Positions 3,659-34,902 of a stretch of 34,902 nucleotides of DNA are shown piece after piece; position 1 is the first letter of the stretch; each line of letters opens with the position of its first letter. The notes beneath the pieces were generated by a model. It had not been told where the DNA came from. It did not search any database and saw nothing but the letters and a program-made list of their open reading frames with translations. The stretch is from positions 1 through 34,902 of the forward strand of contig CANHIY010000014.1 of the NCBI GenBank assembly GCA_947461175.1, read 5' to 3'. Made by a program: the position numbers and the translations under genes. Origin of the DNA: Bacteriovoracaceae bacterium. Lineage in GTDB: Bacteria > Bdellovibrionota > Bacteriovoracia > Bacteriovoracales > Bacteriovoracaceae.

Positions 3659-3660
3659 TC

Positions 3661-5918: not shown

Positions 5919-5919
5919 T

Positions 5920-12760: not shown

Positions 12761-13236
12761 TCGTGGTGGTAGCGGGGATCAATTTTTACTTTAAAATTAT
12801 TTCTGGGATTAACTGGATCATAGATGGGTTGGTCCCAGCTCTCCATAAGTTTTCCAGAACGGGCATCCACTAAGACCCGGAAGGTGGTGGTGGCGTTAAC
12901 CTCATTTTTTAAGGTCACGATGTAAGACTGGGCCCTCACTTTTTTCCCACCATAGTTCCAAGGAATTTCTTCCACTTTTTCAAACGACATCTCAGATAAA
13001 GAATCTTTCACCATATTTCTTATGGTTGTTTCCATTGTCTTTTCATGTCCCACATGGTGTTTAACTGCATCAGTGGCCACATAAGGCAGAGCCTCTTTAT
13101 TTTTTTCCTTTATCAAAATTTTTTGAGGATTCATCTTTTTTGTTATGACTTTTTGAGTGGAGGATTCCTGCCCCCTAAAAAAAAGAAGTAATCCCAAAAA
13201 AAGCACAAAAAAAAGAAAAGATATTTTTTTATTCAT
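12757..13236 (-). CDS. Small exported or membrane-anchored protein with a PepSY-like end
   Basis: At 159 aa it has an N-terminal hydrophobic segment (residues 5-20) with Lys before it, so it is exported or anchored. The C-terminal part YIVTLKNEV...FRVLVDARSGKLMESW resembles the strand-strand ending of PepSY domains (evyvDaktGkv), which often inhibit or accompany metallopeptidases. This is a weak resemblance, not a firm domain call. The start overlaps the end of the metallopeptidase lipoprotein gene by 8 bases, so the two are very likely co-translated. That fits a peptidase/inhibitor or chaperone pair, which is inference. Confidence 0.6.
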   Translation of the reverse strand: MNKKISFLFFVLFLGLLLFFRGQESSTQKVITKKMNPQKILIKEKNKEALPYVATDAVKHHVGHEKTMETTIRNMVKDSLSEMSFEKVEEIPWNYGGKKVRAQSYIVTLKNEVNATTTFRVLVDARSGKLMESWDQPIYDPVNPRNNFKVKIDPRYHHD

Positions 13237-15613
13237 TCACTTCAAAATCAAAGTTAATAATTTTAAAAGGCTTATGCCCATTGTAGTCCAGGTCAATAAA
13301 ATCATCGTTTCCGTTTGTGTAACAATCAGAACAATTACTAAACCGTGCCCTGAGTCTGCATCTAAATTTTGTACCCGGTGGGATCCACTTGTTTACTTCC
13401 ATAAGAAGTAAGTTTCCAACGTTAAAATTCTTCTCTTCAGTATTTTTTACCACCGATTCATAATACGTTTTTTGAGGCTCAATTTTCGAGAAAAATGCAT
13501 CATTTCCCCCAGGTAAAAACCTCACAAGGCACTCGTGGCGATTGAAGTTAAAGTCAACTTCACTTGGATTGGTGGTCGAATAACCGAGGCAGTCCTTATC
13601 GGTGAGGGAGAGGCCACTTTTTTTTCTGTACTCATCTTGAGAAACCCATTTTGAGGTTTCTCCTTCTTCTGATAAAACCATACAGGCCGGAGAAAAATCT
13701 AAAGAGGTTATATCACATGTTCCACCACTTACCGCCCCTTCATCCATAGTGGTAATGTCATCCACCTTACATGGACTAAAATTGCGAGAACCATAATTAT
13801 TCACATGATCCCAGTCCGTAGCAAGAACCTGAACTCCGGCCATGGTGGAGTTGGAGTTATTAACAATATTTGGGATAACTCCCAAAACTTCTCCCGGAGA
13901 GATGCCAAGATTATTATTATTAAATTTTGTTCCCGCCACATTGGTGCTCAAGGGAACGGGAACACCCTTATAAATGAGCTCCTTTAATATGGCGTCCACA
14001 TCAGAGGTGTTATCAATCAGATAATAACTTACCCGGTCCGGTTTATCGGTGGTCCTCTTGGCGAGGCTAATCATCTCTTTTGAGATCAGAATGGATTTTA
14101 GTCGTTTGGACTCATTAACTTTGGTTGGAGTAGTTGGAGAAGGTGAGTTAAAGAAGTTTTTAGATAATTCCTTTGTCGATGTTCCATCATCATTGTAATT
14201 TTTAAATAACAAGAGCCCATAATCATCCAGAAGTTTTTCTGAATCAAATGATGTGCAGGATGAGAGGTACTTGTTTATATTTTTTCCAAAGACTTGAAAA
14301 AATCTTCTGAAGTTGATGGGGTTATTATAATGGGTCCAGACATAGGAATAATCTTTATCAAGATTATTAAAATAAATGGTCTCAGTTTTAGGATTTAAAT
14401 CTCCAAGTTCACTTAACGTTGCCCCTAACAGAAGAAGAACATAAGAAGTCGTAAGATCATGATCTTCTAAACCACATTTTGATTTTAATTCTTTCGTCAG
14501 CGCCACTAAGTAGTGGGAAACAATTTGGCCTGCGTAGTGAACATCTTCATAAACTTCATCGGGATTATTTGGATCGTAAAGAAGATATTGAGGGTAGGAG
14601 AGTCTTTCGGAAGAGCTCTCAGAGATTCCCGGAATCCTATGAAGATCACTAGACTCTGACATTGGACGAGACTGCTTGAATGTTTTTCCTAAGGCAAATT
14701 CTCCGAATTCAGTCCTCTCATTCATTAAGAAGCTAAAGTAATCAGAAATCCCTTCACCAATGGCCCCAGCTTCACTGTATCCCATGGATCCAAGATTGGA
14801 TCTTAAAGGATGGTAATTGCTTCCGTCTCCATTTCTTAAATTCATCATAATGGATATGAAGGCATGGCCCAGTTCGTGATAAATAATACTTGGATCCTGA
14901 ACAAAATAAAATCCAGGATAGGCCTTTAATTTTCCAAAACACAGGCTCGGCCCTGCAGGTGAAAAAGATGCATTCCCCTCTAACTCACAATGAGAATATG
15001 AAGTTAAAAAATCATTTTTAAATAACTTTTTATCGATGCCTGTCATTTTTTTAAACCAAAAAAGTTCTGAGTCATCTAAATAAGAAGGGATTGATTTTGG
15101 AGAAGGAAAACGCTGAGTAATATCATAGGCAAAACCCAGTTTCTCTAAAAAAGTGCTCACCGTTTTATTAATATGGTAGAGGGTATTTACCTGATAGAAC
15201 TCTGGTGAGTCCGGAGCGAAGATAAAAGTTTGATCAGATTTTCTTTGAAGGGGAGTGGTATCTGATTCTTTGGAGAGTGATTTAATACAATCACTGATAA
15301 TCACATCAAATTCAAAAAATAACATGACACAGTTACTGGTTAGATCATGATTATCAGTAATGAACTGTGGGATATCATTTGTGAGGGAGGACATTTTTAT
15401 ATTTTTTAAACTGTAATTTTCTCCGGCCAGGATATAGGGACTATCTTCATAAACAAAGGCCTTACCATCAAGACTTCCATCATTCATGGAAATATCACTT
15501 CGGGTATTTTTTGGAGTCAGTTCCGTAGGAGTACAGGATGTTAGTAACACCAGTAAAGAGAAGATATAAATATTTTTTCCAAAAAAAGGTTTTGGATTTT
15601 TAAAAAGATCCAT
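13229..15613 (-). CDS. Lipoprotein zinc metallopeptidase (HExxH...E gluzincin, fungalysin-like)
   Basis: The 794-aa protein has a signal peptide and lipobox (LLTSC, Cys27). The middle holds YHELGHAFISIM, with H246, E247 and H250 as zinc ligands and general base, then AGAIGEGISDYFSF, with E287 as the likely third ligand. The last motif resembles GEGWSDF of M36 fungalysins, and DVHYAGQIVSHYLVAL lies where M36 enzymes have their PHYNGEIW helix. The rest shows no family I know. The C-terminal 200 residues carry about ten Cys, suggesting disulfides. It follows the 1002-aa secreted protein gene by 54 bases and overlaps the PepSY-like gene. It would act outside the cytoplasm; the target is unknown. 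Confidence 0.75.
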   Translation of the reverse strand: MDLFKNPKPFFGKNIYIFSLLVLLTSCTPTELTPKNTRSDISMNDGSLDGKAFVYEDSPYILAGENYSLKNIKMSSLTNDIPQFITDNHDLTSNCVMLFFEFDVIISDCIKSLSKESDTTPLQRKSDQTFIFAPDSPEFYQVNTLYHINKTVSTFLEKLGFAYDITQRFPSPKSIPSYLDDSELFWFKKMTGIDKKLFKNDFLTSYSHCELEGNASFSPAGPSLCFGKLKAYPGFYFVQDPSIIYHELGHAFISIMMNLRNGDGSNYHPLRSNLGSMGYSEAGAIGEGISDYFSFLMNERTEFGEFALGKTFKQSRPMSESSDLHRIPGISESSSERLSYPQYLLYDPNNPDEVYEDVHYAGQIVSHYLVALTKELKSKCGLEDHDLTTSYVLLLLGATLSELGDLNPKTETIYFNNLDKDYSYVWTHYNNPINFRRFFQVFGKNINKYLSSCTSFDSEKLLDDYGLLLFKNYNDDGTSTKELSKNFFNSPSPTTPTKVNESKRLKSILISKEMISLAKRTTDKPDRVSYYLIDNTSDVDAILKELIYKGVPVPLSTNVAGTKFNNNNLGISPGEVLGVIPNIVNNSNSTMAGVQVLATDWDHVNNYGSRNFSPCKVDDITTMDEGAVSGGTCDITSLDFSPACMVLSEEGETSKWVSQDEYRKKSGLSLTDKDCLGYSTTNPSEVDFNFNRHECLVRFLPGGNDAFFSKIEPQKTYYESVVKNTEEKNFNVGNLLLMEVNKWIPPGTKFRCRLRARFSNCSDCYTNGNDDFIDLDYNGHKPFKIINFDFEVNE

Positions 15614-15667: not shown

Positions 15668-18600
15668 TTATTGAGCTACCCCATTCTGATTTGCTTTTAT
15701 TAATTCATCAACGATGTCATTTATCCCTTTTTGTATTTCTCGACCGGTATCATTTTCTGCTCCACAGTAGGCGGCGGCTCCTCCGAGTTCGGTGGTGTTA
15801 ACATTAACCTTTTCTTTTTCAAATTGATATATTACCCGGGCTTTTGCATTGCTTACATCTGCACAAACTATCTCTTTTGTGTTGTTGTTTGTTACCTCTT
15901 TGCATGGCTTTAATATTTGATCACATAAATCTTTGTAAACTAAATTGTAATTTGCATCTTTTTCCTTATTTATACAAATACTATTAGCATCAAGACCACC
16001 TTTCTCATCAGCAGGTGCATTCTGCGAGCAGTAGTTATAAAAATCGGTGACTTCTTTGGAGGCCTGTTGCTGCTTTCTTGGATCAAGAATTGCAATCCCT
16101 TCATAAGCTGATTCCACAATGTCTTGAAAGTTTTCTGAGCAGGCCCCATTATGATGAGCACTTGCCATGCTATACATTCTGCAGAATTTATTTCTTTTTT
16201 CTCCGAGTTCAGACATCTTCTTCATGTTTTCTTGTTGCTGTTGGTTTCTTTGTTGTTCTGCGGCCTGGATGGCTCCATCATGCTTTGAGAGACAATCTTT
16301 TGAAATTGTTTCGGCTTCACTGATGACTTTCTCGTAGTTTTTTTCGGTCTGTTTAATGTGGTCGGAAAGTATACCTGGGTTCTTTCCAGTGCCGACACTG
16401 TCTCCTCCGAGGATCTGATCCTGTTGTTTTTTTACGGATTCTTTTAGTTTTTCAATATTATTTTTAAAAAGATTAAAATATTTTTCCGGATCTTCAAGAA
16501 GGAGTTTTCCGTCAGGGGAATTTTGGGTGGCAGAGGAAAATTCAGAGAGGTAACGATTACTTTCAGGAAGGACTTCCCGTTGTATGCCATTCGGGGAGCT
16601 AAATCCTGCACCAAACATTCCTCGGAGCATTTCTCCCTCTCTCATGTATTGGGCAAGAGCGGTATCAAAGGTTCTTACGATGTCATTTTTATTTTTTTGC
16701 ATCATTTGCTTGTAGTTATTAACCCGCGTTGTTTTTTTATCTTGGATGGTTTTGACAAAACTTGAAGCCTGCTGAGAACAGGACTCCATGTTTTTTGAAC
16801 AAGAAAGAGCGGCGGCCGCGCAAAAGCCTGGGGCAGAAGTGTCGAAGCGATCGGAGGTACAAGAACCGGGGGCCGTGTTGTTGGCAACTTCCGGTGTTTC
16901 GCAGTCGATGAGTCTTTTTCTGATGACGTTTTTCATTTCCGCTGCCTGAGATTTTGAAAGATTTTGATAAGCGTCTTTAAGGGAGCGGAGGTTTTTAATG
17001 GCGTTGGCACCGGTGAGCTTGTTGTTGAGTTTGTTCGCCTTAAATTGGGCGTTACAGTTTCTTATGATGTCTGAAAAAAAGGCACTGGGGCTTTTTATGG
17101 TGGAGGCCCCGACAACTTTTGATCTTAAATTGCCTTTTTCATCCACATCCTGAACCTCGTAGGAGTTATCCATTTTTAAAAAATACCTGTTTTTGGTTTG
17201 GGTCTCAAGGGTCTTAAGCTCTTCTAGTTTTCGCTCAAGTGTGAGGTCACTATTCAGGATGTTGTTGAGCTTATCTTTTAAAAAATTAGAAGCGTTTTTG
17301 TTGGCATGAGATGAGGCCGTGGGGTCATAAATTTTTTTCATGATCTTCTCTCTTCCCATGCTTGAAATGGTGGAGGAGAAGCATTTATTTTTTAATTGAT
17401 TCTCAAGTGTTGAAACCTCATACTCAAAATTATCTGAAACGGGGTTTCCTAAAAGGTCTGTGGCCGCTTGGGCGGATATCCCAGCGGTGCGAAGTTCTGA
17501 TTGGATAGTATTTTTTTGATCATTTAATTTCAGGAAGCGTTCGTTAAATTTTGTTTGAAGATCGGAGAAGAGATCGGGTTTCAGGGCGTTTTGTGAGCCA
17601 TTTACTGAGCTAACGGAGTTAGAAAGGTTAGATAAAAAACCACTGTACGCCGATGAGTCTTTTGAAAGAGACCCAAAATTTAATTCAAACTGCTTAGCTG
17701 TATTGTCTGCCAGGCTGTTAAGGTCTTCAAGGACAGAGGAATGGGCATTGGCGTAGGATTCTCCAGAAAACTTTCCCTTCTTTTCTGAAAAGGCTTTTTT
17801 AAGATCCTGATTGATTTGATTTAGTCCTTTATCTCTTCCGGTTTCATTGAGCTTATCACCGGCAAAGATGGAGTTACAGGCAGGATTATTAAAGCGGGAT
17901 TTAAAATCAAAAAGGTCTGGTCTTTTAGTTCTAACTTTGTCGGCAATCTCTGAGTTCCCATCGAGCACGGCCACAGCTTCCTCAATGGCATCAAGATCTG
18001 CACGGGATGATTCCCTGAACTGGTTTTGGAAGGCCTCAAGATTGGTTGTGAGCTTATCCATTTCATCCAGGCGGTATTTAAAGAAACCGTTTAAAATCTG
18101 CATGGCATTGTTCATACAACCAACTCCAAATCCCTGACCTTGGGTATTGGAGTCGGCGGAGTAATTTTTGTAAACCTTAGTGATTTGAAAGTACTGATTA
18201 TAGTAGGTGAACATTTGGTTTAGCTGATAATCCTGGGGAATCCCTTTGTCGGAGGTGGCGCCGATCCGGCACACTTCGGGTTTTGCTTCGTAGAGTGTGG
18301 TGGGAAGGGTGCTACAGTTAAGGACATTAGGGTTAATTCCATTGAGGGAGAGGTAATTTGAAAGGCCAGGAATTTGAGAGAGGCGCTGGAGGTTAAAGTA
18401 CTTATCAGGCTGAGGGGCCATCTGGCCTTGGAGGTTACCCATGTCCATGGCCATTTGTTGATTTACGTTGGCCTGAGCTGGATTAGGTCTTTGACCCTGA
18501 ACTTGATTATAAATAGAGCCAGCGATATCTAGCCCCGTGGAGATGACTTCAGCGGCACTGGTTTTTCTTGGGGGAGGGGTGGTTTGCCCAAAGGCCGTGA

Positions 18601-18676
18601 AGCCCACGAGAGGAGAAACCATCAGTTCTATGGAGAGAAGGATCGATAAAGGTTTAAATAGCATCGATATTTTCAT
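15668..18676 (-). CDS. Large secreted Cys-rich, helix-rich protein, unknown function
   Basis: The preferred start (ATG 18676) gives 1002 aa, with AAGG seven bases upstream and a proper signal peptide (MKISMLFKPLSILLSIE...FGQ). A TTG at 18715 would put 13 charged residues in front. The mature protein begins Pro/Gln-rich, then becomes long helical, Asn/Lys/Gln-rich sequence with a Gln run (QQRNQQQQEN) and roughly two dozen scattered Cys, densest at LIDCETPEV...GSCTSDRF...GFCAAAALSCSK...SCSQQ. That points to an exported, disulfide-bonded, coiled-coil-like protein. No family is recognised. It is the first gene of a probable operon with the metallopeptidase lipoprotein and the PepSY-like protein, divergent from the FHA-RDD gene. 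Confidence 0.75.
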   Translation of the reverse strand: MKISMLFKPLSILLSIELMVSPLVGFTAFGQTTPPPRKTSAAEVISTGLDIAGSIYNQVQGQRPNPAQANVNQQMAMDMGNLQGQMAPQPDKYFNLQRLSQIPGLSNYLSLNGINPNVLNCSTLPTTLYEAKPEVCRIGATSDKGIPQDYQLNQMFTYYNQYFQITKVYKNYSADSNTQGQGFGVGCMNNAMQILNGFFKYRLDEMDKLTTNLEAFQNQFRESSRADLDAIEEAVAVLDGNSEIADKVRTKRPDLFDFKSRFNNPACNSIFAGDKLNETGRDKGLNQINQDLKKAFSEKKGKFSGESYANAHSSVLEDLNSLADNTAKQFELNFGSLSKDSSAYSGFLSNLSNSVSSVNGSQNALKPDLFSDLQTKFNERFLKLNDQKNTIQSELRTAGISAQAATDLLGNPVSDNFEYEVSTLENQLKNKCFSSTISSMGREKIMKKIYDPTASSHANKNASNFLKDKLNNILNSDLTLERKLEELKTLETQTKNRYFLKMDNSYEVQDVDEKGNLRSKVVGASTIKSPSAFFSDIIRNCNAQFKANKLNNKLTGANAIKNLRSLKDAYQNLSKSQAAEMKNVIRKRLIDCETPEVANNTAPGSCTSDRFDTSAPGFCAAAALSCSKNMESCSQQASSFVKTIQDKKTTRVNNYKQMMQKNKNDIVRTFDTALAQYMREGEMLRGMFGAGFSSPNGIQREVLPESNRYLSEFSSATQNSPDGKLLLEDPEKYFNLFKNNIEKLKESVKKQQDQILGGDSVGTGKNPGILSDHIKQTEKNYEKVISEAETISKDCLSKHDGAIQAAEQQRNQQQQENMKKMSELGEKRNKFCRMYSMASAHHNGACSENFQDIVESAYEGIAILDPRKQQQASKEVTDFYNYCSQNAPADEKGGLDANSICINKEKDANYNLVYKDLCDQILKPCKEVTNNNTKEIVCADVSNAKARVIYQFEKEKVNVNTTELGGAAAYCGAENDTGREIQKGINDIVDELIKANQNGVAQ

Positions 18677-18746
18677 GAAGGCGCCTTTTTTCTTATCTAG
18701 TTTTCTATCGGACAAAAACTAAAAAAAATTAATGAAATTGTCCTAC

Positions 18747-18849: not shown

Positions 18850-21153
18850 GTGGTGAAGGTGTTTAAGAATTTATTTAAACGAAAACCAAAAGACGTTGTT
18901 TCAGATGATTCTCAAATGATAAATCCCAGGGAGATTAAATACTCCAAGGTCTTTGAGCTTGAGTTAAGTAATATGGAAGGAACTCCTGTTTACTCCCTCA
19001 CTCACCAACTCTCCGTTGGAAGCGAAATCGGAAACATCATCATTGCTGATCCCTCCATCTCTCCCAGGCATGCCACTTTCTTTCTTCAGGATGAAGTGGT
19101 TTCCCTTCTTGATCATGGAAGTGTGTCGGGGACAAAAATTAATGGTCAACTCATTGAACCAGGTAAAAATATAATACTGGAAGAGAGTGATACGGTTTTA
19201 GTAGGGGACCTTGAATTAAAAATCAAGGTGAGTGTGGTGGAAAGTAAGGAAGAAGTTATTCCTCCTGTGCCAGTGGAGAATGAGGAGCTTCAGTTAGAAA
19301 AGCCCCCTGAGGAAACTTTTGATGATGTGGACCCCTTTCAGGAATCACAGATAAAGGTTTTAAACCTAAAAAAATCCATTGAAAAAAATAAACGACCTTC
19401 CTCTAAGCTTGTGATCAGTGCGCCTACGAGTTCTGCAAATGCCATCATCCGGGTCCTGTCGGTGTGTTGTGATTTTTTATTGGCCTACTCTATCCTTTCT
19501 ATTTTTTCTCCTTTTAATGACTTCAGGATGTTCCTAGAATTTATTCCTGACACAGTTGGGGAACTAGCGGGAATGAAGGGGTCTTATCTGTGGTCAGCAC
19601 TTACTTCAGATTTCCCGGTTTTAGAAGAGATAAGATTATTTTTAATGGCGGTGGTGACGGAGCTTTTAAACTTATCTTCCCTTGAACTAGATTTCGTCTC
19701 CTTAGTTGTTCTCTATGCCATCATCCGGTTTGTGACGACTTTATTTATGGGTGTTAGTATTTCTGAATTTTTCCTTGGCATGAGGAGTGAGGGACACCCT
19801 GTTTGGTCGAGATTTGGAGGCGTTGTTAGAGTCATCACTGGTTTTGTGACATGGCCCTTTCTTATTTTTGATATTCCTGCGATTGTCTCTAGAAGGACAT
19901 TAAAGGAATTGGTCTCTTTTACAAATGTTATTATCCCTTCTACCTTACTAAGCATTCTGGGGATTATTTTTTATATCCCTCTTTTGTTACTCTTTTTACT
20001 CTTTTCTCCCATGATTCAGGGCCTAGAGTTTCCAACGGAAGTGGCGATAAATTCTCAGATTGATCCGGGTGTGTTTGTGCCAAAAAAATCACCGGATGAC
20101 CTTCCAGCAGTTGGAGGAATTCCAGCACCTCTATTCTTTGAGACTTCATCTCATTTAGGATTTGACCTCTCCTATGATCCAGAAGAATTGCTCCTCATTC
20201 CGGACTTTCATTTTCAGGGTAGCAAAAAAAGATTAACTCTTAAGACGGGTTTGGTGTTTTACCAGAAAAGTCTTAAAGAGAATGTTGAAATGGAAGTTTA
20301 TAAAACGTTTAATTTGAAAAAACTTTTGGGGATCGCGATCAAAGGAAACTTTTTTCTCTTTGATAAGTACCCAAGAATTTATGATTACGTTTACAGGGTG
20401 GATGCCTTAAGCACCTCTTTTAAAAAAGAAGTATCTCCCAAGGATGAGGCCCTTTTTGCCAGTGAAGTGATTAAATTATTCTCCACCGCTTTTTCTCTCA
20501 ATCTTATGAATTCCCTGGATATCATGCAGGAAGAGACTCTTCTTATAAAAGGATTGATTGAATTAAAGTCATCTTTTTTCAATCTTCTTGAGAGAAAAGA
20601 ATTTAAGGATATTAGTTTTATAAAAATGGGGGACGCTATCTTCATGAAGTTAAGTGTAGACGGAATGAAACCCTATGATCTTCTCATTCCTTTAGTCATG
20701 GATCATGGAAAAATTTATAAAATAAGTTTTTCCAAAAAAGAGACCAAGGACCTCTCCTCCTCACTTCTTTATAAATCCACATTTAAAAAGGGCCGCTGGC
20801 CTGGTACCCAAAAAAGAGAAAAATCAGAGACTATGACAGCTCTTGAGGTTCATGACTTATTTTCAGAACCACAACTTGATGCCTTCTTTAAACAACAGGG
20901 CAGTGCTCAAGCTCTCTTTGGCTATTTATTTGAAACTTCCAGTAAGGTTTTAAGGCGGGGAGATGAAGTGGAAATGGCCACCTGGAAAAATTCTCTGGGA
21001 AAATTATTTCATTTATTGGAAAACTTACCTGACCCTAAAGTTCCTGGAGAAGAGCTAGATGCTAAAACTAGGCTTGTGCAGAACACGAGGTCCATAAAAG
21101 AGGCCGTCGATACCAAAAATGTGAGTTATTTTGGTCTAAACACTAATCCCTAA
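18850..21153 (+). CDS. FHA domain-RDD membrane fusion protein
   Basis: The 767-aa protein begins with a cytoplasmic FHA domain (about 35-128): LSVGSEIGNIIIADPSISPRHATF, then SVSGTKINGQ and DTVLVGDLELKI. The SxxH and NG positions are kept, but the usual Gly-Arg is Gly-Ser. An acidic linker (130-185) follows, then an RDD-type membrane domain: R201 and D208 in IIRVLSVCCDFL, EFFLGMRSEGHPVWSR, and SRRTLKELVSFTNVI, with helices near 199-219, 283-300, 323-343 and 360-388. The last 370 residues match no family I know. FHA domains read phosphothreonine, so kinase control of a membrane channel or transporter is possible. GTG starts at 18850, 18853 and 18859 follow AAGAGGA; the exact start is unsure. 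uppP follows 12 bases later. Confidence 0.8.
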   Translation: MVKVFKNLFKRKPKDVVSDDSQMINPREIKYSKVFELELSNMEGTPVYSLTHQLSVGSEIGNIIIADPSISPRHATFFLQDEVVSLLDHGSVSGTKINGQLIEPGKNIILEESDTVLVGDLELKIKVSVVESKEEVIPPVPVENEELQLEKPPEETFDDVDPFQESQIKVLNLKKSIEKNKRPSSKLVISAPTSSANAIIRVLSVCCDFLLAYSILSIFSPFNDFRMFLEFIPDTVGELAGMKGSYLWSALTSDFPVLEEIRLFLMAVVTELLNLSSLELDFVSLVVLYAIIRFVTTLFMGVSISEFFLGMRSEGHPVWSRFGGVVRVITGFVTWPFLIFDIPAIVSRRTLKELVSFTNVIIPSTLLSILGIIFYIPLLLLFLLFSPMIQGLEFPTEVAINSQIDPGVFVPKKSPDDLPAVGGIPAPLFFETSSHLGFDLSYDPEELLLIPDFHFQGSKKRLTLKTGLVFYQKSLKENVEMEVYKTFNLKKLLGIAIKGNFFLFDKYPRIYDYVYRVDALSTSFKKEVSPKDEALFASEVIKLFSTAFSLNLMNSLDIMQEETLLIKGLIELKSSFFNLLERKEFKDISFIKMGDAIFMKLSVDGMKPYDLLIPLVMDHGKIYKISFSKKETKDLSSSLLYKSTFKKGRWPGTQKREKSETMTALEVHDLFSEPQLDAFFKQQGSAQALFGYLFETSSKVLRRGDEVEMATWKNSLGKLFHLLENLPDPKVPGEELDAKTRLVQNTRSIKEAVDTKNVSYFGLNTNP

Positions 21154-21165
21154 GAGACATCAACC

Positions 21166-21987
21166 ATGACTTTTTTTGAGGCCATCATCTACGGAATCAT
21201 CCAAGGACTCTCTGAGTTTCTTCCCATCAGTTCAAGTGGTCACCTGGCCTTATTACCTTATGTGATGAAGATCAAAGACCCAGGAGTGGTGTTTGATCTC
21301 ATGATGCATTTGGGGACGGCCCTCGCCGTGATGACCTACTTTCGAAATGATATTTTCAGGTACGCCAAAACCTTCACACCCTCCTTGGCCGATTTTAAGG
21401 TGGGAGGAGAGGATAGGTGGTTTGTCCGAAATTTTATTTTCTCTACCTTGGTGAGTGTGTTTTTTATCGTTTTACTCATCCCCTTTGCTAAGGAGGCAAG
21501 GTCCCCCTTCGTCATCATCTTTAATCTTTCTTTTTTTGGTGCCCTGTTGTGGCTCTCTGATTGGAAGAACTCAAGAAATGAACAGATTCTTAATTCTCCT
21601 CTCACAAGCTCTTTTCAACTCCGGATTGCGGGTCTTATAGGTTTATCTCAGTCTCTGGCCATTTTTCCAGGGGTGAGCCGTTCAGGGATCACACTCACGG
21701 TGGCACTTCTGTTGGGGATGCGAAGAAAAGAGGCCGGGAACTACTCCTTTCTCCTCTCACTCCCCATTATCTTTGCGGGAATTTTAAAGGAAGTCCCAGA
21801 CTTAATGAAAAATCAAAATGATTCTTCACTTTTGATCCTCTTAACAGGTGTCATCGCTTCATTTATTGTGGGCTTTTTAACCATTCACTTTTTTATGAAG
21901 CTGATTGCACAAATAAAACTTGGATACTTTGCTGTTTACCGCTGGATGATTGCTCTCTTGATGGTCTGGGTTTTAACTTACTCATAG
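21166..21987 (+). CDS. uppP: Undecaprenyl-diphosphate phosphatase
   Basis: UppP/BacA recycles undecaprenyl pyrophosphate to the monophosphate carrier for peptidoglycan and other envelope glycans, and gives bacitracin resistance. This integral membrane protein (273 aa, family length) has the first signature GIIQGLSEFLPISSSGHL (catalytic Glu and Ser/His set) and the second FPGVSRSGITLTVALLLGM (catalytic Arg). Hydrophobic segments fill the rest. It sits 12 bases behind the FHA-RDD gene and probably shares its transcript, with only a weak AGAGA ribosome site. Its 3' end overlaps the convergent giant lipoprotein gene by 10 bases. Confidence 0.96.
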   Translation: MTFFEAIIYGIIQGLSEFLPISSSGHLALLPYVMKIKDPGVVFDLMMHLGTALAVMTYFRNDIFRYAKTFTPSLADFKVGGEDRWFVRNFIFSTLVSVFFIVLLIPFAKEARSPFVIIFNLSFFGALLWLSDWKNSRNEQILNSPLTSSFQLRIAGLIGLSQSLAIFPGVSRSGITLTVALLLGMRRKEAGNYSFLLSLPIIFAGILKEVPDLMKNQNDSSLLILLTGVIASFIVGFLTIHFFMKLIAQIKLGYFAVYRWMIALLMVWVLTYS

Positions 21988-24900
21988 CCCTTAGGCACAC
22001 AGTAAACGTGGTGATTCCACCTTACTCCCGCATCAAACTTGTAGCCAACGTAACCCGTTTCCGGGTTGTTATCTATTTCTCCCGTTAGATAATGAAAACG
22101 TCTTCTCCTCTTTGGAAGAATTTCTGGATCTTCAGGAACAGAGAGGTCAAAGGTACCATCCTTGAGAGGAATAGGTAATTCACTTATGGCCACACCTCTG
22201 GCAACTTGGCCTGAACAGCACATGTTATTTTGTATGGCGAGTCTTTCAACGGTATTTGGATTTTTTATGTATCCCGTGGTCTCATCATACTCTGATTTAT
22301 CAAGTCCTCGACCCTCGGATGATACGTAACGATTAAGGTAGACCGTAAGATCCGTATAATCAGGAAGGCAGCAAATTTTGGTGGTGTTACTGATGGTATT
22401 ACTAAATCCCGTACAGCACTGGCTGGCCGTGGTGGTGGAGGGGACAGCTTTACCAGAAGGGATACAGCAGTTGAATTCATGTTCGGAGAAGACTTTTTTT
22501 AGGGTGTTTGTGCCTAGATTAAGTTGAGTGTAGTTTGTTCCAGAATAATACTTATAGGTATCCTGAAAATCAAAAGTTGTATTGGGTTTAAAGATTTCTA
22601 TGATATTCGAATTATTCGAATCTGTGAGAGGTAACTTTGAGGCAGCAATACCTTGTTGGCTATCATTAACAAGTTTAAAAATCTGATCATTTGTTTTAAT
22701 CACAGCCTGAGGAATTCCAATGAGCTCAAGGCTAGCCGCCCAGGAGAGGTATTTTTTTTCTTCATCTCCACCTTCGGGAAAAGGTATTAATTCGCAGCTA
22801 TCATTGTAAAAGTTTTCTTCGTCACACTCAAAAGAATTGCGATCTGGGTCATCATTTATAATATTATCTGGCTGCAAGGCAATTAATGTATCTGGTTTCC
22901 AGCTCACATGCTTAAACATGGCCTTATCTATGACCTGCATTTTGGATGGTGTAAAGGCATGACCACCTCCATTGTCTTCTGAAAAACTTCTCACCCAGTG
23001 CTTGGTGCAACAAGTTCTTTCGTTGAGTTTATCCAAAGTTTCATACTGGGCCTTAACTTGTTTTAATCTTGTCTCTTGGTCTTTTGACTCAAGGGAGAGA
23101 GCAAATTTTTTGGTTGGAGTTTTAGTTAAGTCATCAGTATCACAAGTCATCTGATCATACACAGAATGAACTCTTGAGTATCTTGTAGGATCATTGTAAC
23201 TAAGGTTTATACCTGCAACGTTTTTGTCAGCAGGAGTAGCTTTGTTACACCATTTAAATGGAGATCTGGAAGTTTGAGTATAAACACTCAGCGTTTTTCC
23301 AACATCCCGGCAGCATTTATTATTTTTGATGTCATAAGCACTATTGACCACGCCTGGGAAATTGTATTTAAACTCTGGGTTTCCGCAAATAAGGTCTTCC
23401 TTCCAGAAATTGATCTCTGCTTCAGAAAGATATCCGGTAAGATCAGAAGCACTAACCATCTCTGAAATCACATCTGAGGGAGCGCACTCAAGGTCACTAA
23501 AACAAGATGCACCGGCTGCTCTTAAGCAGGTATTCCTTTGATATCCAAGAGTCAGTACTTCTGATCCATTAGTGGAGCTAAAGATGCCCACATCTTTTAA
23601 GGGAGTGAGGTCTAAAAGATTAGATGAAAGATTCTGTGAAATGGTTCGAAGGTTTAAATTTGGATCATTTAGAATTGTATTAGATAGATGGATTGATTTC
23701 CCTGTGCTGTCGGTAGCAGGGCAGGCGTTGAGGGAAAAAATTTCTTTTGTGGAAGTGGAAGTGGTTCTCCCCGTGCCGTAGAGTTTATCTGAAGAGTCTG
23801 TTTTTATGACGGGGGTTTTAGCATGAAGGTCCCAGGTTTTGGATGTTGATGTAATACCGGTAAAATCTTTTCCCGGTGTGCAAAGTCCACTAACTTTATT
23901 ATCAGATTCTAGAGTTGAGCTCACAGAGCTTCGAATAGTTTTTGTTCCATAATAATCAAAGGGTCTTCCGATCACCCTTGCTCCAAAGCCTAGAAGATCA
24001 GATAACGTCGTCACATGGGAATTATTTTGATCCTCTGGAGATGCCCCAAAACGGGCGATCTGGTCATTAAACCGAGAGGAAGTCAAAGGTGTACAGGAAT
24101 TATTCGGAGAGCACATGACTGTTCCAATTAAAGGTGAGCCGTTAAACTTTGGTGAACTACTAAATCTGTTTAAGTCAGGAAGGCAAGGAGCACCTCGCCC
24201 TCTATAAATACAGCGGTTGGTTTGCCCGTTGGTTCCTAAAATGAGGGAGGATAAGGTCCTAGAGGTTGAACCGATGAGCTCTGTTCCGTCGACGCTAAAG
24301 TTGGGCCAGTTGGTACTGATACTTGTCACATTCTGGCATGTGTAATCAAAACCCAGAAGCCTGTAGCAGTCATCATCTGTTTTACAAAAATGAGCACTCT
24401 GACATTCGGCCCCGTCGGTTTCGGAATCGTGATCTGCTATGTCGGAAGAGTAATCTGTTGATTCTGAAATGTTGACACTAAATTTATTGTCACTGTTTAA
24501 GTCCCCGAAGTAGGAATTTATCGCAAGGTAGAGTTTTGTTCCACTGGCCCTGACTCTTCTTTGGGTGCCGATGGAGAACCACTTTACTCCATCGAAGGAA
24601 CCAATGAGAGAGCCGTAATCAAATCCGTACCAGTCTCTGTTGTAGCCGTTGGCAAAGAGAAAATGCTGGGCATTTAAGCGGGCCTGTCTTTGATCTTTGA
24701 CTGTAGAACCTTGTGCATGGGTCCAGGGAATCATGGTGGCCGGAATAAAACAGGCCCTGCCAAAAAGAAGATCATCGGCCCGGTAGATGCCTTTATTTTT
24801 ATGACGGCTACTCTCATAAAGATTTGGGGAATAGCCACCACCATAGGATTTAAAATTTTGTGGAAAAATTTTCTGATAACTTCCGTAATAATCACTACCA

Positions 24901-26945
24901 CAGCTTTGGCAACCGGAGAAGGCTCCGTCTCTGGCCACAATGTCGTAGAACATGCCATTTTTTACTGAAACCACTTTGGCAGGTCTTGCTGGGTTTTTAC
25001 TTTTTTCCTTAAGGCTTCCATAGATTTCATTGAAGCCTATGTATTTAGTAACATTATTGGGTAGGAGAAGATTATCCTCAGAGTATATAAACTCAGGGAG
25101 CTCCTGGGGCGGAGTGGAGGTTGTCAGATTATCGTAGCTCACACCATTTTCGTCATAATAACGATGTGGCACATTTTTTGAGGTCACATATACGGTTTGA
25201 TTTACCGGAGGAGTGGTGGAGGTGGGGGGCAAAATGGAGCACTCATAATTAACCACCGCTTCTTTTTTTGAGTCAAAAATAGGGCTAAGGCCACAGGGAT
25301 AATCACTGTGGCAGTGGCACATGGAGTTGATCTTTTCCTGGGCAGCTTTTTTAAGTTTCATTACGCTGAGAGAATCACTTTTAACAAAATAAGTAATCTC
25401 AATAGTTTGATTTTGGTAGAGGGAGTAGGCTGGCTTAAATTCTATCCCATTGGCACTTCTCCCCCAGGTCGTTAAGGACTCAGGCACAATCACACCACCA
25501 ACTTTTACAACTAATTTTCCAGTGCCTGAATCAAGGTTTGCATAATTTGGAAGTCTAAAAGACTTAGAGGAATCATGGTAAGTTGTGAGCTTGTTATCAG
25601 AGGATTGTTGGATGTAGCTTTTCGTACAGCGCACACTGGATGAAGTCAGGGCTTCACAGGTGCCATCAATTTTGTAGGTAAGATAGAGGTTGTTGTCTTT
25701 TCTATTTGAGAGAGCAGGACTTTTTAGAGTCACTGTTTGAGAGTTCGTGAGGTTATCGTTTGAGGCTCCTAAGGTAAAATCATCCGTTTCTGTAAGAGAC
25801 TTACCACCATAAAAAACTTTTACGATGTTTTTTGATTCTAAATTTGGATTTAGTGAAGTGAAGTTAATGTCATCATTAAAACCCTGACTACTTCCCGAAT
25901 AAGAGGGAGTGGTGGATGTAACATTTTCAAATTTTAAACTGCAGTGAGAAAATTCTCCATCAACCTTATTGATACAATCATATAAATTTTTTAATTCCAT
26001 GAGCCTGACACTTGCTTCGTAATCAGGATCACTGGTGGAGGGAGTGGTGGTCACTGCTGACTCAGGACGGGAGCCACACACAAAAAAGTATTGGGGATAA
26101 AGAGAGATTCTCGCGGGATGTGATTCCACATCTAATTTTGCTTCATTGTAACCAGAAAGTGAGGAAGCTCCTGGTTTGGTGGCGCCGTCTTTTACGCACT
26201 GGCCATTAAGGCAACAGGAAAAACCTTTCGCCTGACAGGAAGTGGATTCAGAACAGCTGTTGATAGTTGAGCTAGTGGCCCCTCCGATGGTGGGGATGAG
26301 TAGGTTTAATGATATGGAAGGAACCTCTTTTCCATCGGTAAAATAGAGCCTTAGACCTGAACCTGTTATGGGGGTGAGGCATGTTGGACAAATAGTGGAA
26401 AGAGCAAAAGAATAATTGGGAGTTGAAGGTGTGGAATGACTTGAAAGGGTAGTTTTTATAGCGGAAACATTACAATGATTCTCATTAAAATCATTATTTG
26501 CCGGTGAAACTTGAAGATAGTATTCCCTGGTTTTATTAATGAAATCCACATAAGAGCGGGGTGTGGCACTTAAGATCAGGTAAGTGTCTGGGGAAGTTGT
26601 TAAGGGTTTAAATTTTGTCACGAGACACAGTTTCGTTGATTCAGTAAGGTTTTTTAAATAGAGAGAGAGGGATTTTCCTCGAATAAGAAAGGTGTCACTG
26701 AAGTTTGAGGCGAGGGCAAAATGAGTGAGGGACTGATTTTCTCCTTCCTGAATGAAAATTCCATTCAATGGGTAATTGGGTTCAGGGTAGGATGAAGTCA
26801 CAGAGCTTTTCGTATCTTCTGAACTACTACTTTCATTGAGACTTGGGGCCGTAGAGGAGGGCATGCAGGAGGAAATGAAAAAGAGCACAAATAAGATAAG
26901 TGCTGAGTTTATTTTGATGTGAAAATTTCTCTTAAAGTAAAACAT
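21978..26945 (-). CDS. Giant lipoprotein with repeated Cys-Cys pairs, unknown function
   Basis: The 1655-aa protein has a signal peptide and lipobox (ISSC, Cys27), followed by a Ser/Thr-rich stretch, so it is lipid-anchored outside the cytoplasm. The body is Ser/Thr/Asn-rich with many Cys. Seven adjacent Cys-Cys pairs occur, near residues 241 (FSCCLNGQC), 1210, 1310, 1491, 1512, 1527 and 1578, four of them in the last 165 residues. A further cluster, CQSAHFCKTDDDCYRLLGFDYTC, lies near 848. Such spacing suggests small disulfide knots, as in adhesins or surface stalks. No enzyme motif is seen and no family recognised. Only a close AGGG and a distant GAGGA precede the ATG. Its stop lies inside the end of uppP. 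Confidence 0.8.
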   Translation of the reverse strand: MFYFKRNFHIKINSALILFVLFFISSCMPSSTAPSLNESSSSEDTKSSVTSSYPEPNYPLNGIFIQEGENQSLTHFALASNFSDTFLIRGKSLSLYLKNLTESTKLCLVTKFKPLTTSPDTYLILSATPRSYVDFINKTREYYLQVSPANNDFNENHCNVSAIKTTLSSHSTPSTPNYSFALSTICPTCLTPITGSGLRLYFTDGKEVPSISLNLLIPTIGGATSSTINSCSESTSCQAKGFSCCLNGQCVKDGATKPGASSLSGYNEAKLDVESHPARISLYPQYFFVCGSRPESAVTTTPSTSDPDYEASVRLMELKNLYDCINKVDGEFSHCSLKFENVTSTTPSYSGSSQGFNDDINFTSLNPNLESKNIVKVFYGGKSLTETDDFTLGASNDNLTNSQTVTLKSPALSNRKDNNLYLTYKIDGTCEALTSSSVRCTKSYIQQSSDNKLTTYHDSSKSFRLPNYANLDSGTGKLVVKVGGVIVPESLTTWGRSANGIEFKPAYSLYQNQTIEITYFVKSDSLSVMKLKKAAQEKINSMCHCHSDYPCGLSPIFDSKKEAVVNYECSILPPTSTTPPVNQTVYVTSKNVPHRYYDENGVSYDNLTTSTPPQELPEFIYSEDNLLLPNNVTKYIGFNEIYGSLKEKSKNPARPAKVVSVKNGMFYDIVARDGAFSGCQSCGSDYYGSYQKIFPQNFKSYGGGYSPNLYESSRHKNKGIYRADDLLFGRACFIPATMIPWTHAQGSTVKDQRQARLNAQHFLFANGYNRDWYGFDYGSLIGSFDGVKWFSIGTQRRVRASGTKLYLAINSYFGDLNSDNKFSVNISESTDYSSDIADHDSETDGAECQSAHFCKTDDDCYRLLGFDYTCQNVTSISTNWPNFSVDGTELIGSTSRTLSSLILGTNGQTNRCIYRGRGAPCLPDLNRFSSSPKFNGSPLIGTVMCSPNNSCTPLTSSRFNDQIARFGASPEDQNNSHVTTLSDLLGFGARVIGRPFDYYGTKTIRSSVSSTLESDNKVSGLCTPGKDFTGITSTSKTWDLHAKTPVIKTDSSDKLYGTGRTTSTSTKEIFSLNACPATDSTGKSIHLSNTILNDPNLNLRTISQNLSSNLLDLTPLKDVGIFSSTNGSEVLTLGYQRNTCLRAAGASCFSDLECAPSDVISEMVSASDLTGYLSEAEINFWKEDLICGNPEFKYNFPGVVNSAYDIKNNKCCRDVGKTLSVYTQTSRSPFKWCNKATPADKNVAGINLSYNDPTRYSRVHSVYDQMTCDTDDLTKTPTKKFALSLESKDQETRLKQVKAQYETLDKLNERTCCTKHWVRSFSEDNGGGHAFTPSKMQVIDKAMFKHVSWKPDTLIALQPDNIINDDPDRNSFECDEENFYNDSCELIPFPEGGDEEKKYLSWAASLELIGIPQAVIKTNDQIFKLVNDSQQGIAASKLPLTDSNNSNIIEIFKPNTTFDFQDTYKYYSGTNYTQLNLGTNTLKKVFSEHEFNCCIPSGKAVPSTTTASQCCTGFSNTISNTTKICCLPDYTDLTVYLNRYVSSEGRGLDKSEYDETTGYIKNPNTVERLAIQNNMCCSGQVARGVAISELPIPLKDGTFDLSVPEDPEILPKRRRRFHYLTGEIDNNPETGYVGYKFDAGVRWNHHVYCVPKGYE

Positions 26946-27863: not shown

Positions 27864-28508
27864 ATGAAAAAAGAGCTTCAGTTTAATTTATTCAAAGGTA
27901 AGCGAGGCGGAAGACGCCCCGGTGCTGGACGGAAAAGAATTCACTCCAAAGGAGTGTCTCATCTTAAAAGAGAAACTGTTACAAAGAGAACTCCCCAGCA
28001 CGTAAACTTTAAATTTCAATGCTCTATAAGAAATAAGGATTGCCTTAAGCTCCTAAAGCGCTCCATTCAAAATGCCCAAAAGATGGGTCTGAAGATCATT
28101 CACTTTTCGCTTCAATCCAATCATGTGCATCTTATTACCGAGGCAGATAATAATGAGGTTTTAACTAAGGGAATGCGGGCCCTTACCATCACTTTCTCTA
28201 AGGGATTAAACAGGGGGCGAGTTCAGCTGGAGCGTTATCACTTGCATGTTCTAAAGACTCTTAGGGAAGTTAAGCACGCGATTGTGTATGTTCTTTTTAA
28301 TGAACAAAAACACACCAAGAAAAAAGCCTCAAAGATCGATGGGTACACATCGGTCTTGTATCTTGAAGAGGGGTTAAAGCTTGTGAGAAATTTTGCACAA
28401 AAGAATAAGGTGACTCTTAAGATAGACAAAATTTCGGAAGAGTTCACCCTTCCACAATCTTCGGGATACTTACTTTCAAAAAGTTTAAAAGATCTCGCCG
28501 TCATCTAG
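27864..28508 (+). CDS. REP-associated tyrosine transposase-like protein (Y1/HUH, RAYT)
   Basis: The 214-aa protein has GGRRPGAGRKR at residues 15-25, a head found on many single-copy proteins of this type in delta-like proteobacteria. The HUH motif is SNHVHLI (H87, H89). The helix REVKHAIVYVLFNEQKH carries the probable catalytic Tyr142. RGRVQLERYHLHVLKT matches the family's GRVFADRYH region. RAYTs nick and join single-stranded DNA at palindromic REP sequences and are usually fixed single genes, not mobile insertion sequences. No matched terminal repeats are seen. AAGG lies 13 bases before the ATG, rather far, within the dyad AGGAT-AA-ATCCT. All key residues are present, so it may be active. 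Confidence 0.85.
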   Translation: MKKELQFNLFKGKRGGRRPGAGRKRIHSKGVSHLKRETVTKRTPQHVNFKFQCSIRNKDCLKLLKRSIQNAQKMGLKIIHFSLQSNHVHLITEADNNEVLTKGMRALTITFSKGLNRGRVQLERYHLHVLKTLREVKHAIVYVLFNEQKHTKKKASKIDGYTSVLYLEEGLKLVRNFAQKNKVTLKIDKISEEFTLPQSSGYLLSKSLKDLAVI

Positions 28509-28547: not shown

Positions 28548-28649
28548 ATGACATTATTTTTGGTGATGAAAGAACTTTTTTTGACTGAGAAGGGTAACTA
28601 TTTCAAGCTGGCACTGGAGGGAGAGCATTTTAAGAAAGAGAGGAAGTAA
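28548..28649 (+). CDS. Possible 33-codon small ORF, unknown
   Basis: ATG at 28548 opens a 33-aa frame (MTLFLVMKELFLTEKGNYFK, ending EHFKKERK), with AAGGG at 28536-28540 seven bases upstream. That Shine-Dalgarno lies inside the perfect palindrome AGGGATCCCT (28537-28546), which might hide it. The sequence is amphipathic with a basic tail. It overlaps the 3' end of convergent cinA by 20 bases. It may be a true small protein, a remnant of a larger gene, or chance. Confidence 0.3.
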   Translation: MTLFLVMKELFLTEKGNYFKLALEGEHFKKERK

Positions 28650-29898
28650 ATTTTTCCACTTCTTCTAAGAGTGTAAACAAGGCCACCTGGGAAAATCTTT
28701 GCTTTAAAATTTCCCTGTCTCCAAAAAGGTTAAGTTTTTGAACTTCGACTGGTTTACCTCGCTTTGCCTTTCCAATAAAAACAGTTCCTACGGGATTTTC
28801 TGATGTGCCTCCACCGGGACCAGCATAACCTGTGATGGAGAGGGCGATGTCTAGATGAAATTTTTCTAGTAAACCCATGGCCATTTCTGTGGCCGTTTCT
28901 GAACTTACGGCAGAGTGGTTTAAGAGGGTTTCTTTCTTGACTCCAAGAATATCTTCTTTAATTTTTTCATCATAACAAACCACTGATCCCATAAAAGATT
29001 GGCTACTACCAGGAACTCCGGTGATCCGGTGGGAGCACAGTCCCCCGGAGGCGGATTCGGCGAAACCAAATTTGATATTTCTAAGGTTGCAGAGCTTTAT
29101 GATTTTTTCTTCGAGGGTCTCTCTACCCTGACCCCAGATGTTTTTATGGAGAGGGGATTTTTCAAAGATGGAATGAAGCTCTAAAACTTTTTTTTCTAAC
29201 TCTTCTTCTGAAGAGGCCCTGACTTTTACTCCGATATCAACTCCCATAAGATTAGGAAGAGAGCTCACCTCACCATAATGGGAGAGTTTGTCCCACAAAA
29301 GAGTGTCCACCTCTTGGAAGATTTTTTCTTCCGGGATGTATTTTGTCCGCATGATCACGTGCTTTAAAAAAGTCGTTTTTTCTAATTTTTCTGAAATCAC
29401 AGAAAAAAGATGATCTTCAATCATCCTTTTAAATTCTCTAGGAACTCCAGGGGCGCTAAAGAGGAACTTGTTTTGGTGTTTCGTATAAAAACCTGGAGCG
29501 AATCCCATGGTATTTGAGAGAGGGGAAAAATCTTCAGGAAGGTAGGAGTAGGTGTGATCTTTTCCAGGAAAAGTTCGATGAAAGCGTTTGTAATTATCCT
29601 CAGATGTTTTTAGAGCATCTGGATGAAAGAGGATTTTTTTTCCAAAAAAAGAGGCAATTGTTTCTTTGGTGATATCGTCTTTGGTGGGCCCAAGGCCCCC
29701 GGAGGTGATGACAACATCATGGGTGTGAAATAATTCTCTTAACCCATGCTCGATGTCGGATTTTGTGTCCCTTACCACCATGGATTCATGAATTTCCTCG
29801 TGATGGGACCTAAGATACTCTGACAAGATTTTTGTGTTGAGGTCTGTAATTTTTCCATCAAGTATTTCGCTTCCGATGATAAGAAATCCAATTTTCAT
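28630..29898 (-). CDS. cinA: CinA-family protein (molybdopterin-binding-like + PncC nicotinamide-nucleotide amidase domains)
   Basis: The 422-aa two-domain protein starts with a COG1058 MoCF-like domain (IGSEILDGKITDLNTKIL, VVITSGGLGPTKDDITKE, PGVPREFKRM). It ends with a PncC/CinA domain (FGFAESASGGLCSHRITGVPGSS, SVVCYDEKIKEDILGV, AVSSETATEMAMG, SITGYAGPGGGTSENPVGTVFIG). Family members cleave ADP-ribose and deamidate nicotinamide mononucleotide in NAD salvage, and the name reflects co-induction with competence genes. The usual ESCTGG is ESASGG here, keeping the Ser after Glu. GAGG lies six bases before the ATG. It is divergent from the FAD dehydrogenase. Confidence 0.93.
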   Translation of the reverse strand: MKIGFLIIGSEILDGKITDLNTKILSEYLRSHHEEIHESMVVRDTKSDIEHGLRELFHTHDVVITSGGLGPTKDDITKETIASFFGKKILFHPDALKTSEDNYKRFHRTFPGKDHTYSYLPEDFSPLSNTMGFAPGFYTKHQNKFLFSAPGVPREFKRMIEDHLFSVISEKLEKTTFLKHVIMRTKYIPEEKIFQEVDTLLWDKLSHYGEVSSLPNLMGVDIGVKVRASSEEELEKKVLELHSIFEKSPLHKNIWGQGRETLEEKIIKLCNLRNIKFGFAESASGGLCSHRITGVPGSSQSFMGSVVCYDEKIKEDILGVKKETLLNHSAVSSETATEMAMGLLEKFHLDIALSITGYAGPGGGTSENPVGTVFIGKAKRGKPVEVQKLNLFGDREILKQRFSQVALFTLLEEVEKFTSSLS

Positions 29899-34503: not shown

Positions 34504-34902
34504 TCACCCTTGGGCTTTATTCCTCATCACCGCCGCGGCGGCGGTGGGTTTTAAAGGGACCACAAACCCTTGGCAATAACTCTCCCTTTGGTGGCAGTTG
34601 TAGCAGAGAAGCTTTAGGTTATTTTTCTCATGCACTCCTCCATAACTTTGAGGTTTTAGGTGGTGAATCTCTAACCGGTACTGGCTTTGGCACTTTTCGC
34701 ATTTTCTTTGGGAGCGTTCATAAACTTCCCTTTTTACTTGGGTCGGAATAGTTTTCGTTTCATGATTTTTATGCGCTTTCGGTTTATCGGTTTGATGGTA
34801 TTTCGTTTTTTCAAGAGACTTCTTTTTAAATCTTATGAGTTCCATGAAGAGGTCTTTGTCAGAAAGATGGAGTTCTCTTTTTAATGAATCTAACTCCTCT
34901 GC
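34504..34902 (-). CDS. HNH endonuclease-like protein, C-terminal part (5' end outside window)
   Basis: The frame stays open to the right edge (AEELDSLKRELHLSDKDLF before the first internal Met at 34845), so the gene begins outside the window. The visible C-terminal 132 codons hold a linker with many Lys (KKKSLEKTKYHQ), then REVYERSQRKCEKCQSQYRLEIHHLKPQSYGG and NNLKLLCYNCHQ. That is an HNH motif with two CxxC zinc knuckles (CEKC, CYNC). It resembles the many 'HNH endonuclease' proteins of Bdellovibrio-like genomes, where the HNH domain closes a protein of 300-400 aa. Its role (DNA repair, defence or mobile DNA) is unclear. The tail contains an unusual GC-rich Ala run. Confidence 0.85.
   Translation of the reverse strand, partial: AEELDSLKRELHLSDKDLFMELIRFKKKSLEKTKYHQTDKPKAHKNHETKTIPTQVKREVYERSQRKCEKCQSQYRLEIHHLKPQSYGGVHEKNNLKLLCYNCHQRESYCQGFVVPLKPTAAAAVMRNKAQG

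Follow-up and report, generated by a model that had tools for sequence, protein, structure and literature searches.

A giant cysteine-rich lipoprotein family of the Bacteriovoracaceae with a predicted LecA-like module

The subject of this study is a gene for a giant lipoprotein, designated A, in a 34,902-nucleotide stretch of DNA from a Bacteriovoracaceae bacterium (assembly GCA_947461175.1, contig CANHIY010000014.1; the whole stretch is termed the window). We propose that A is a lipid-anchored envelope protein that binds glycan through an elaborated LecA-type module, a proposal judged to have an even chance of being right. Its export signal, lipobox, family and cysteine pattern were read directly from the sequences, and its disulfides and LecA-like fold are supported indirectly. 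The features of the gene are as follows.

21978..26945, minus strand: giant lipoprotein A, 1655 residues (open frame; relatives align end to end)
26865..26945, minus strand: signal peptide with lipobox, residues 1-27, where Cys27 is the expected site of lipidation (from the sequence)
26265..26765, minus strand: predicted N-terminal immunoglobulin (Ig)/IPT-like sandwich, residues 61-227 (AlphaFold2 model; VIA structure comparison, Z 6.5, root-mean-square deviation [rmsd] 3.2 over 96 residues, NFAT1 and similar rows)
26196..26255, minus strand: CX5CX6CCX4C cluster with the first Cys-Cys (CC) pair, residues 231-250 (each Cys kept in 80/80 A and 6/6 B rows)
25356..25913, minus strand: A-type-specific insert, about residues 345-530, with a predicted Ig-like fold at 430-527 (unaligned in B; VIA)
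24453..25202, minus strand: predicted LecA/PA-IL-like jelly-roll module, residues 582-831 (VIA ranks 1-6 all LecA family)
24612..24893, minus strand: conserved stretch, residues 685-778, likely an insertion relative to LecA, with invariant R730, H743, R753, R756, Q760, N766, D771 and W772 (conservation; limits inferred)
22206..22478, minus strand: C-terminal CC-rich stretch, residues 1490-1580, four CC pairs (CC positions, co-variation, conservation)

Lipid anchor and predicted LecA-like module

The open frame of A starts with the ATG at 26945 on the minus strand, and the plus strand of the same interval holds 86 stops. The N terminus consists of basic residues followed by a hydrophobic helix and the lipobox ISSC27, and Cys27 was present in every row reaching that position, both for A (80/80) and for its paralog B (6/6). 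By the sequence features of a signal peptidase II substrate, a signal peptide with a lipobox Cys, A is a bacterial lipoprotein. No Asp is found at +2 after this Cys; under the E. coli rule, a lipoprotein without Asp at +2 goes to the outer membrane. A preliminary description of this DNA had reported a 1655-residue lipid-anchored protein with seven CC pairs (four within the C-terminal 165 residues) and without enzyme motifs. The frame, lipobox and CC pairs were confirmed, and the lack of enzyme motifs held for Pfam and NCBIfam, no family of either matching A at an E value of 0.05.

The major data on fold came from AlphaFold2 models built with the family alignment, for which the predicted local distance difference test (pLDDT) was 85.8 for residues 1-620 and 91.7 for residues 530-1655 (predicted template modeling score, 0.88). 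The latter region was modeled as one compact body. When the predicted model was compared by VIA with 231 chains preselected by Foldseek, ranks 1-6 were PA-IL, PllA and the N-terminal domain of EclA (Z 8.2-7.2, rmsd 2.4-3.4 over 109-114 residues), and the seventh row had a Z of only 3.2. The matching region (model residues 53-302) corresponds to residues 582-831, where 112 of 250 residues align to PA-IL, with 16-22% identity to LecA lectins in the structural alignment. The unaligned remainder of the modeled module is an insertion relative to LecA, which probably includes the conserved stretch 685-778. The jelly-roll fold would therefore be common to the LecA/PA-IL lectins (PF07828; PA-IL, PllA and the EclA N-domain) and the predicted module; unlike those lectins, the module is embedded in a 1655-residue lipoprotein, carries a large conserved insertion and was undetected by sequence. 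Lectins of the LecA family are characterized by galactose binding and a homotetrameric state. Most of the 1126-residue model (530-1655) was barely probed by the fold search, so that the absence of other folds there means little.

In support of this assignment, the top Foldseek row for residues 530-1655 was also PA-IL. Several results weigh against it. That Foldseek row was nonsignificant (E value 0.29, probability 0.41), and the VIA tool carries the caution that a best Z of 7 to 8 is often attained by models that lack a clear match; the LecA rows lie near that level, though they are well separated from the next row. PF07828 matched neither A nor the 52 and 49 alignment members nor any of 290 phylum genomes, and profile searches of PDB sequences gave no LecA signal and no relative at an E value of 0.001 or better. 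Counted back from the shared C-terminal end, the Ca-binding Asp of LecA would presumably fall on N810, which like D815 is invariant in 85/85 rows, and the Asn pair of LecA would fall on the variable positions 817-818. As judged from these positions, the canonical LecA site for Ca and galactose may be gone. Moreover, the module is the most conserved part of the protein, whereas variation should be seen in an adhesin that serves against diverse prey. Since the sequence test failed and the ligand positions are uncertain, we speak of a LecA-like fold rather than of a LecA lectin; the modeled region 582-831 may nonetheless work like a lectin, and the odds that it binds glycan are taken to be about even.

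Conservation was analyzed with 89 of 141 hits, after rows shorter than 1400 residues and near-copies had been dropped. The 85 of these rows with at least 1580 residues (79 A and 6 B) were used for co-variation, tree and invariance. The alignments comprised 79 of 80 rows (A3, L056 dropped), 86 of 88 (A4, L056 and L120 dropped), 52 of 88 (A5) and 49 of 87 (A8). Across the 85 rows, 51 non-Cys residues were invariant, and 32 of them fall at 601-815; among the 79 A rows, 38 of the 65 invariant non-Cys residues fall at 531-830. Mean identity to the query over the same A rows was 51% at 531-830, compared to 32% at both 30-340 and 341-530, 37% at 831-1200 and 33% at 1201-1655. The conservation peak at 601-815 holds no CC pair. 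From these sequence comparisons, the LecA-like module rather than the CC-rich tail looks like the functional center, and its conservation speaks for one shared, unchanging ligand, for instance a core glycan of the envelope, over variable prey epitopes.

The density of invariant polar residues across A and B would also suit a new kind of exported enzyme, for example one cutting or transferring glycan or peptide, with R730, H743, R753, R756, Q760, D771, W772, N810, D815, H852, D857, E889, R911 and R915 as its active site. Such an enzyme was deemed improbable, given that no enzyme family was found in Pfam or NCBIfam and that the lectin was the only separated fold match; the PNGase-like Foldseek rows, at E values of 1.5 and worse, are no evidence alone.

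Outside the module, the model of residues 61-227 shows a moderate fold match to IPT/TIG-type Ig domains (Z at most 6.5), and that of residues 430-527 matched the tailspike TSP4 (VIA Z 7.8, rmsd 1.9 over 64 residues) as well as phage-neck and Gram-positive pilin Ig-like rows. No Foldseek row reached an E value of 0.001 for the 1-620 model. Ig-like folds of this kind are common and say little on function. No viral relatives of the lipoprotein were found by sequence or fold.

Under the proposal of a glycan-binding envelope lipoprotein, A would be exported and lipid-anchored in the Bacteriovoracaceae envelope. The N-terminal Ig-like domains (61-227 and the A-only 430-527) would serve as a spacer above the anchor, and the module would be carried by the compact ectodomain 530-1655, held together by disulfides, of which the whole protein could have as many as about 26. 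The module would bind an envelope glycan, either the lipopolysaccharide or peptidoglycan of the prey or the predator's own, at attachment, at invasion or during life in the prey periplasm. The disulfides would confer stability and protease resistance. Surface display with exposure to prey, a role in predation and a partnership with B are inferred.

Cysteine pairs and probable disulfides

Lipoprotein A contains 53 Cys, of which 52 are in the mature protein. The CC pairs are at 244, 1211, 1312, 1493, 1510, 1525 and 1576; composition-preserving shuffles gave a mean of 1.66 CC pairs and reached at least seven in 17 of 20,000 cases. Among 23 nearer relatives, 50 of the 52 mature Cys were invariant, and in a wider set 46 of the 52 positions lacked Cys in no more than 4 of the 83 A rows. 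The more variable positions in A were Cys1312 (kept in 74/83 rows), Cys1493 (73/82), Cys1526 (37/82), Cys1577 (37/81) and Cys1233 and Cys1268 (present in 23 rows each). Of the 52 positions, 46 hold Cys in the six B rows (for 335, only 4 rows are aligned, all with Cys; 1374 and 1384 are Cys in 5/6), and no Cys is found at 430, 440, 1233, 1268, 1526 and 1577. The preliminary description had held that its proposal would be refuted if the CC pairs were not conserved; this refutation failed for five pairs and was partly borne out for two. Both Cys of the pairs at 244, 1211 and 1510 were kept in 85/85 full-length relatives and those at 1312 and 1493 in 76/85, whereas those at 1525 and 1576 were kept in just 34/85.

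The assignment of disulfides was based on joint gain and loss. Over the 85 rows, a presence correlation of 1.0 was obtained for the Cys pairs 186-189, 1233-1268, 1312-1493 and 1526-1577, for a pair found in 44 rows near 1571/1655, and for 430-440, which merely tracks the A insert; a pair near 1346/1424 gave 0.97. On a FastTree phylogeny, the seven tight pairs were gained or lost jointly on 11 branches (one of these joint events, that of 430-440, being simply the A insert), with one unshared change, and 1374-1384 underwent a single joint change. For two looser pairs, whose columns are less certain, 6 of 8 and 3 of 5-7 changes were shared; none was shared in three control pairings. The mature Cys count was even in 83 of 85 rows, the exceptions being L059 (cut by a contig end) and L121 (C682Y), and the genome has DsbA-family matches. 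The joint gain and loss of variable Cys is strong indirect evidence for disulfides, and most Cys of A are probably disulfide-bonded, which supports the disulfide-rich design described earlier. Judged from the same sequence data, CC members are probably joined to distant Cys by at least two bonds (1312-1493 and 1526-1577), the co-varying partner lying up to 181 residues away. Vicinal bonds within CC pairs were rejected as a general rule, and specifically for four of the fourteen CC members (1312, 1493, 1526 and 1577), because these co-vary with other Cys.

The preliminary description had read the CC pairs as marks of a serial disulfide-knot adhesin, a surface structure of repeated small knotted units. 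The excess of CC pairs over the shuffles fits such units, as does the CX5CX6CCX4C cluster at 231-250, the spacing of which resembles that of knottins, compact knots of three disulfides bonded 1-4, 2-5 and 3-6. A profile self-comparison by hhalign over 325 pairs of protein windows gave a best E value of 0.0017, about the level of chance for 325 trials; hence no internal repeats were found that could build a serial knot. With the long-range co-variation of some CC members and the loss of two of the seven pairs in most relatives also against it, the serial knot is very improbable. The broader suggestion of an adhesin is partly supported by folds of types that occur in adhesins, obtained on the predicted models (Ig-like at 61-227 and 430-527, LecA-type at 582-831).

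Distribution and genomic neighborhood

Of 145 genomes, 83 contained the lipoprotein, namely 83 of the 87 Bacteriovoracaceae and none of the 58 others. With a profile of residues 530-1655, matches were obtained in 120 of 368 phylum genomes, all 120 of them Bacteriovoracaceae; 120 of the 129 family genomes listed were positive, compared to 0 of 239 other phylum genomes. Among the misses listed, which were ordered by kinship, are nine family genomes, which count against the proposal of a glycan-binding envelope lipoprotein; one of the nine (G076) gave a weak match (E 6e-4) in the 145-genome search. Among named contigs, 448 stretches matched the patterns and 191 encode relatives, of which the 80 retained carry titles such as Bacteriovoracaceae, Bacteriovorax, Halobacteriovorax, Bdellovibrionales or broader names; these 191 were found with an alignment as the query, and a contig scan with the single protein found no relatives. 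By sequence, this is a full-length conserved family, confined to the Bacteriovoracaceae within the genomes searched.

At least two matches were present in 114 of the 120 positive genomes and one in the other six (some matches are possibly fragments, and two candidates per genome were scored). These sequence counts are consistent with two paralogs, A (the window protein) and B. B was found in 10 of 11 genomes as open frames of 1677-2037 residues with matches close to each end and at the center, lacking approximately residues 345-530 of A; the eleventh genome is the window's own (89.7% complete), in which only A was seen.

In a single-marker BipA tree of 30 rows, the lacking genomes {G028, G065} and {G072, G056, G176, G178} nest in an 11-row clade (100/99) that also holds the window's genus and other genomes having the lipoprotein; its inner forks are unresolved. 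G076 and G181, both incomplete, group with G046. As far as this marker goes, the tree shows at least one loss of the lipoprotein and perhaps two. This nesting lowers the odds that A and B each form one half of a lectin-based apparatus for contact or invasion peculiar to Bacteriovoracaceae predators, a counterpart of the MAT fibers of Bdellovibrio. In such an apparatus, A and B would share the disulfide frame and the putative LecA-like core, would be present and absent together, and would recognize an envelope glycan that is conserved, in place of variable epitopes of the prey; we hold it to be a long shot.

A link to pili was rejected, as PilT-family matches exceeded the cut-off in 29/29 genomes tested, with or without the lipoprotein. 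The pilus-type secretin N-domain PF13629, which we take to be typical of Tad systems, was found in 23 of 24 genomes (over the cut-off in 21), with some match in all 7 tested genomes that lack the lipoprotein. Flagellins were missing only in four genomes of one genus, g32, and were present in 3 other lacking genomes and in 17/17 having genomes. No co-loss with pili or flagella explains the presence pattern: lacking genomes keep PilT and the secretin domain, and 3 of 4 lacking genera keep flagellins, so that the lipoprotein is not tied to those machines. Genus g32 of the same family (G056, G176, G177 and G178) gave no flagellin match in any of its four genomes and has neither giant lipoprotein; a change of lifestyle is possible there. 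One genome without the giant lipoprotein contains a lipoprotein-like open reading frame of 951 residues with 35 Cys (L156, 1-2853, minus strand) that runs to the end of its stretch. Its role as a replacement was rejected, there being no relation by profile.

The neighboring genes and other features of the window are listed below.

21166..21987, plus strand: UppP/BacA undecaprenyl-diphosphatase, convergent with the lipoprotein gene and overlapping it by 10 bases (PF02673, 1.2e-66)
18850..21153, plus strand: FHA-domain protein with hydrophobic, likely membrane segments (by eye) (PF00498, 1.3e-10)
15668..18715, minus strand: 1015-residue protein, likely exported (by eye), with conserved Cys (no Pfam or NCBIfam match)
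13229..15613, minus strand: 794-residue likely lipoprotein with HELGH and GEGISDYF (PF02868, thermolysin C-domain, weak at E 0.026, below cut-off)
27864-28508, plus strand: REP-associated tyrosine transposase-like gene between CinA and the lipoprotein gene (PF01797, 1.3e-5)
28630..29898, minus strand: CinA, upstream neighbor (PF02464, PF00994)
2042-8116, plus strand: carboxyltransferase, biotin carboxylase, biotinyl-domain, HMGL-like and two enoyl-CoA hydratase genes in a row, presumably resembling a leucine-degradation operon
34504-34845, minus strand: small HNH-like protein (by eye)
1-108, plus strand: 5S rRNA at the contig start, 5' end cut

Gene presence, not order, was counted in the 41 of 80 loci having at least 5.5 kb on both sides. 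UppP was downstream in 37 of the 41 loci (immediately next in 34), the FHA-domain protein in 35, and relatives of the 1015-residue protein and of the HELGH protein in 38 each; CinA was upstream in 36. The HELGH protein is, from its motifs, a candidate for a new metallopeptidase family. In one locus (L002), CinA lies about 180 bases upstream of the lipoprotein gene without the transposase gene, which is possibly an insertion near the promoter region. Fifteen Cys of the 1015-residue protein are invariant in six aligned sequences. This protein occurs in 28 of 29 genomes, some matches being weak, and since these include 8 of 9 genomes without the lipoprotein, no dependence between the two was seen; no giant relative was found next to its gene in 8 lacking loci. 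Paralog B adjoins a dus-like gene in 6/6 loci and an ffh-like gene in 5/6 (by eye). Directly upstream of B, in 6/6 loci (L131-L136), is a likely exported protein of 661-782 residues, although the six sequences have only 14-17% identity to the first of them; its homology to the 1015-residue protein was rejected (hhalign probability 0.7%).

These neighbors bear on the possibility that A is a periplasm-facing structural lipoprotein of the predator's outer membrane, acting as a scaffold or bearing load, with the lectin fold as a rigid core that binds no free sugar or else the predator's own peptidoglycan. The presence of UppP and a conserved, likely exported protein in the neighborhood would suit this role, as would the family-wide spread, the slowly varying core, the single compact body of the model and the absence of Asp at +2. 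Near-complete, nested family genomes without the lipoprotein keep the neighbor gene, however, indicating that the envelope as such does not require A, and polar and aromatic residues are numerous among the invariant ones at 601-815, a composition like that of a binding site. We regard a purely structural role as rather unlikely, though deserving consideration.

Relation to other adhesive systems and significance

According to PMC10769870, the MAT fibers of Bdellovibrio bacteriovorus are trimeric, strain HD100 has 21 of them, and the MAT Bd2740 carries a known fold without its Ca-binding motif. By that description, A resembles the MATs as a large predator protein with known lectin or adhesin folds, here predicted; unlike the trimeric fibers described, it is lipid-anchored and disulfide-rich, occurs as two conserved copies and belongs to another predator family. 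The MAT superfamily is characterized by trimeric fibers and by a conserved beta-rich domain of about 130 residues that follows the signal peptide. No S74 peptidase domain was found in A by Pfam, and the non-S74 MATs are also without it. The pilus tip adhesins (PilY1 and the Tad/Kil tip proteins) are likewise large exported adhesive proteins, with Kil used in predation. In contrast to PilY1-type adhesins, A has a lipid anchor, and a Pfam scan covering 19 genes of the window found no pilin; the PilY1/PilC C-terminal domain gave no Pfam match in A at an E value of 0.05.

A literature search found no description of the giant lipoprotein in the accessible portions of its sources, including PMC11656739, PMC5760749, PMC12827227, PMC11875179 and PMC10769870. 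PMC11656739 reports 564 gene clusters that are both conserved within the Bacteriovoracaceae and restricted to them, and the giant lipoprotein is likely to be among them.

With as many as about 26 probable bonds, A is an extreme case of a disulfide-stapled bacterial protein, and should the model hold, its LecA-type fold is one hidden from sequence search. To our knowledge, prey recognition and entry by predatory bacteria outside the genus Bdellovibrio are largely open questions. For these, the family-wide, uncatalogued lipoprotein pair offers a defined candidate ligand-binding module.

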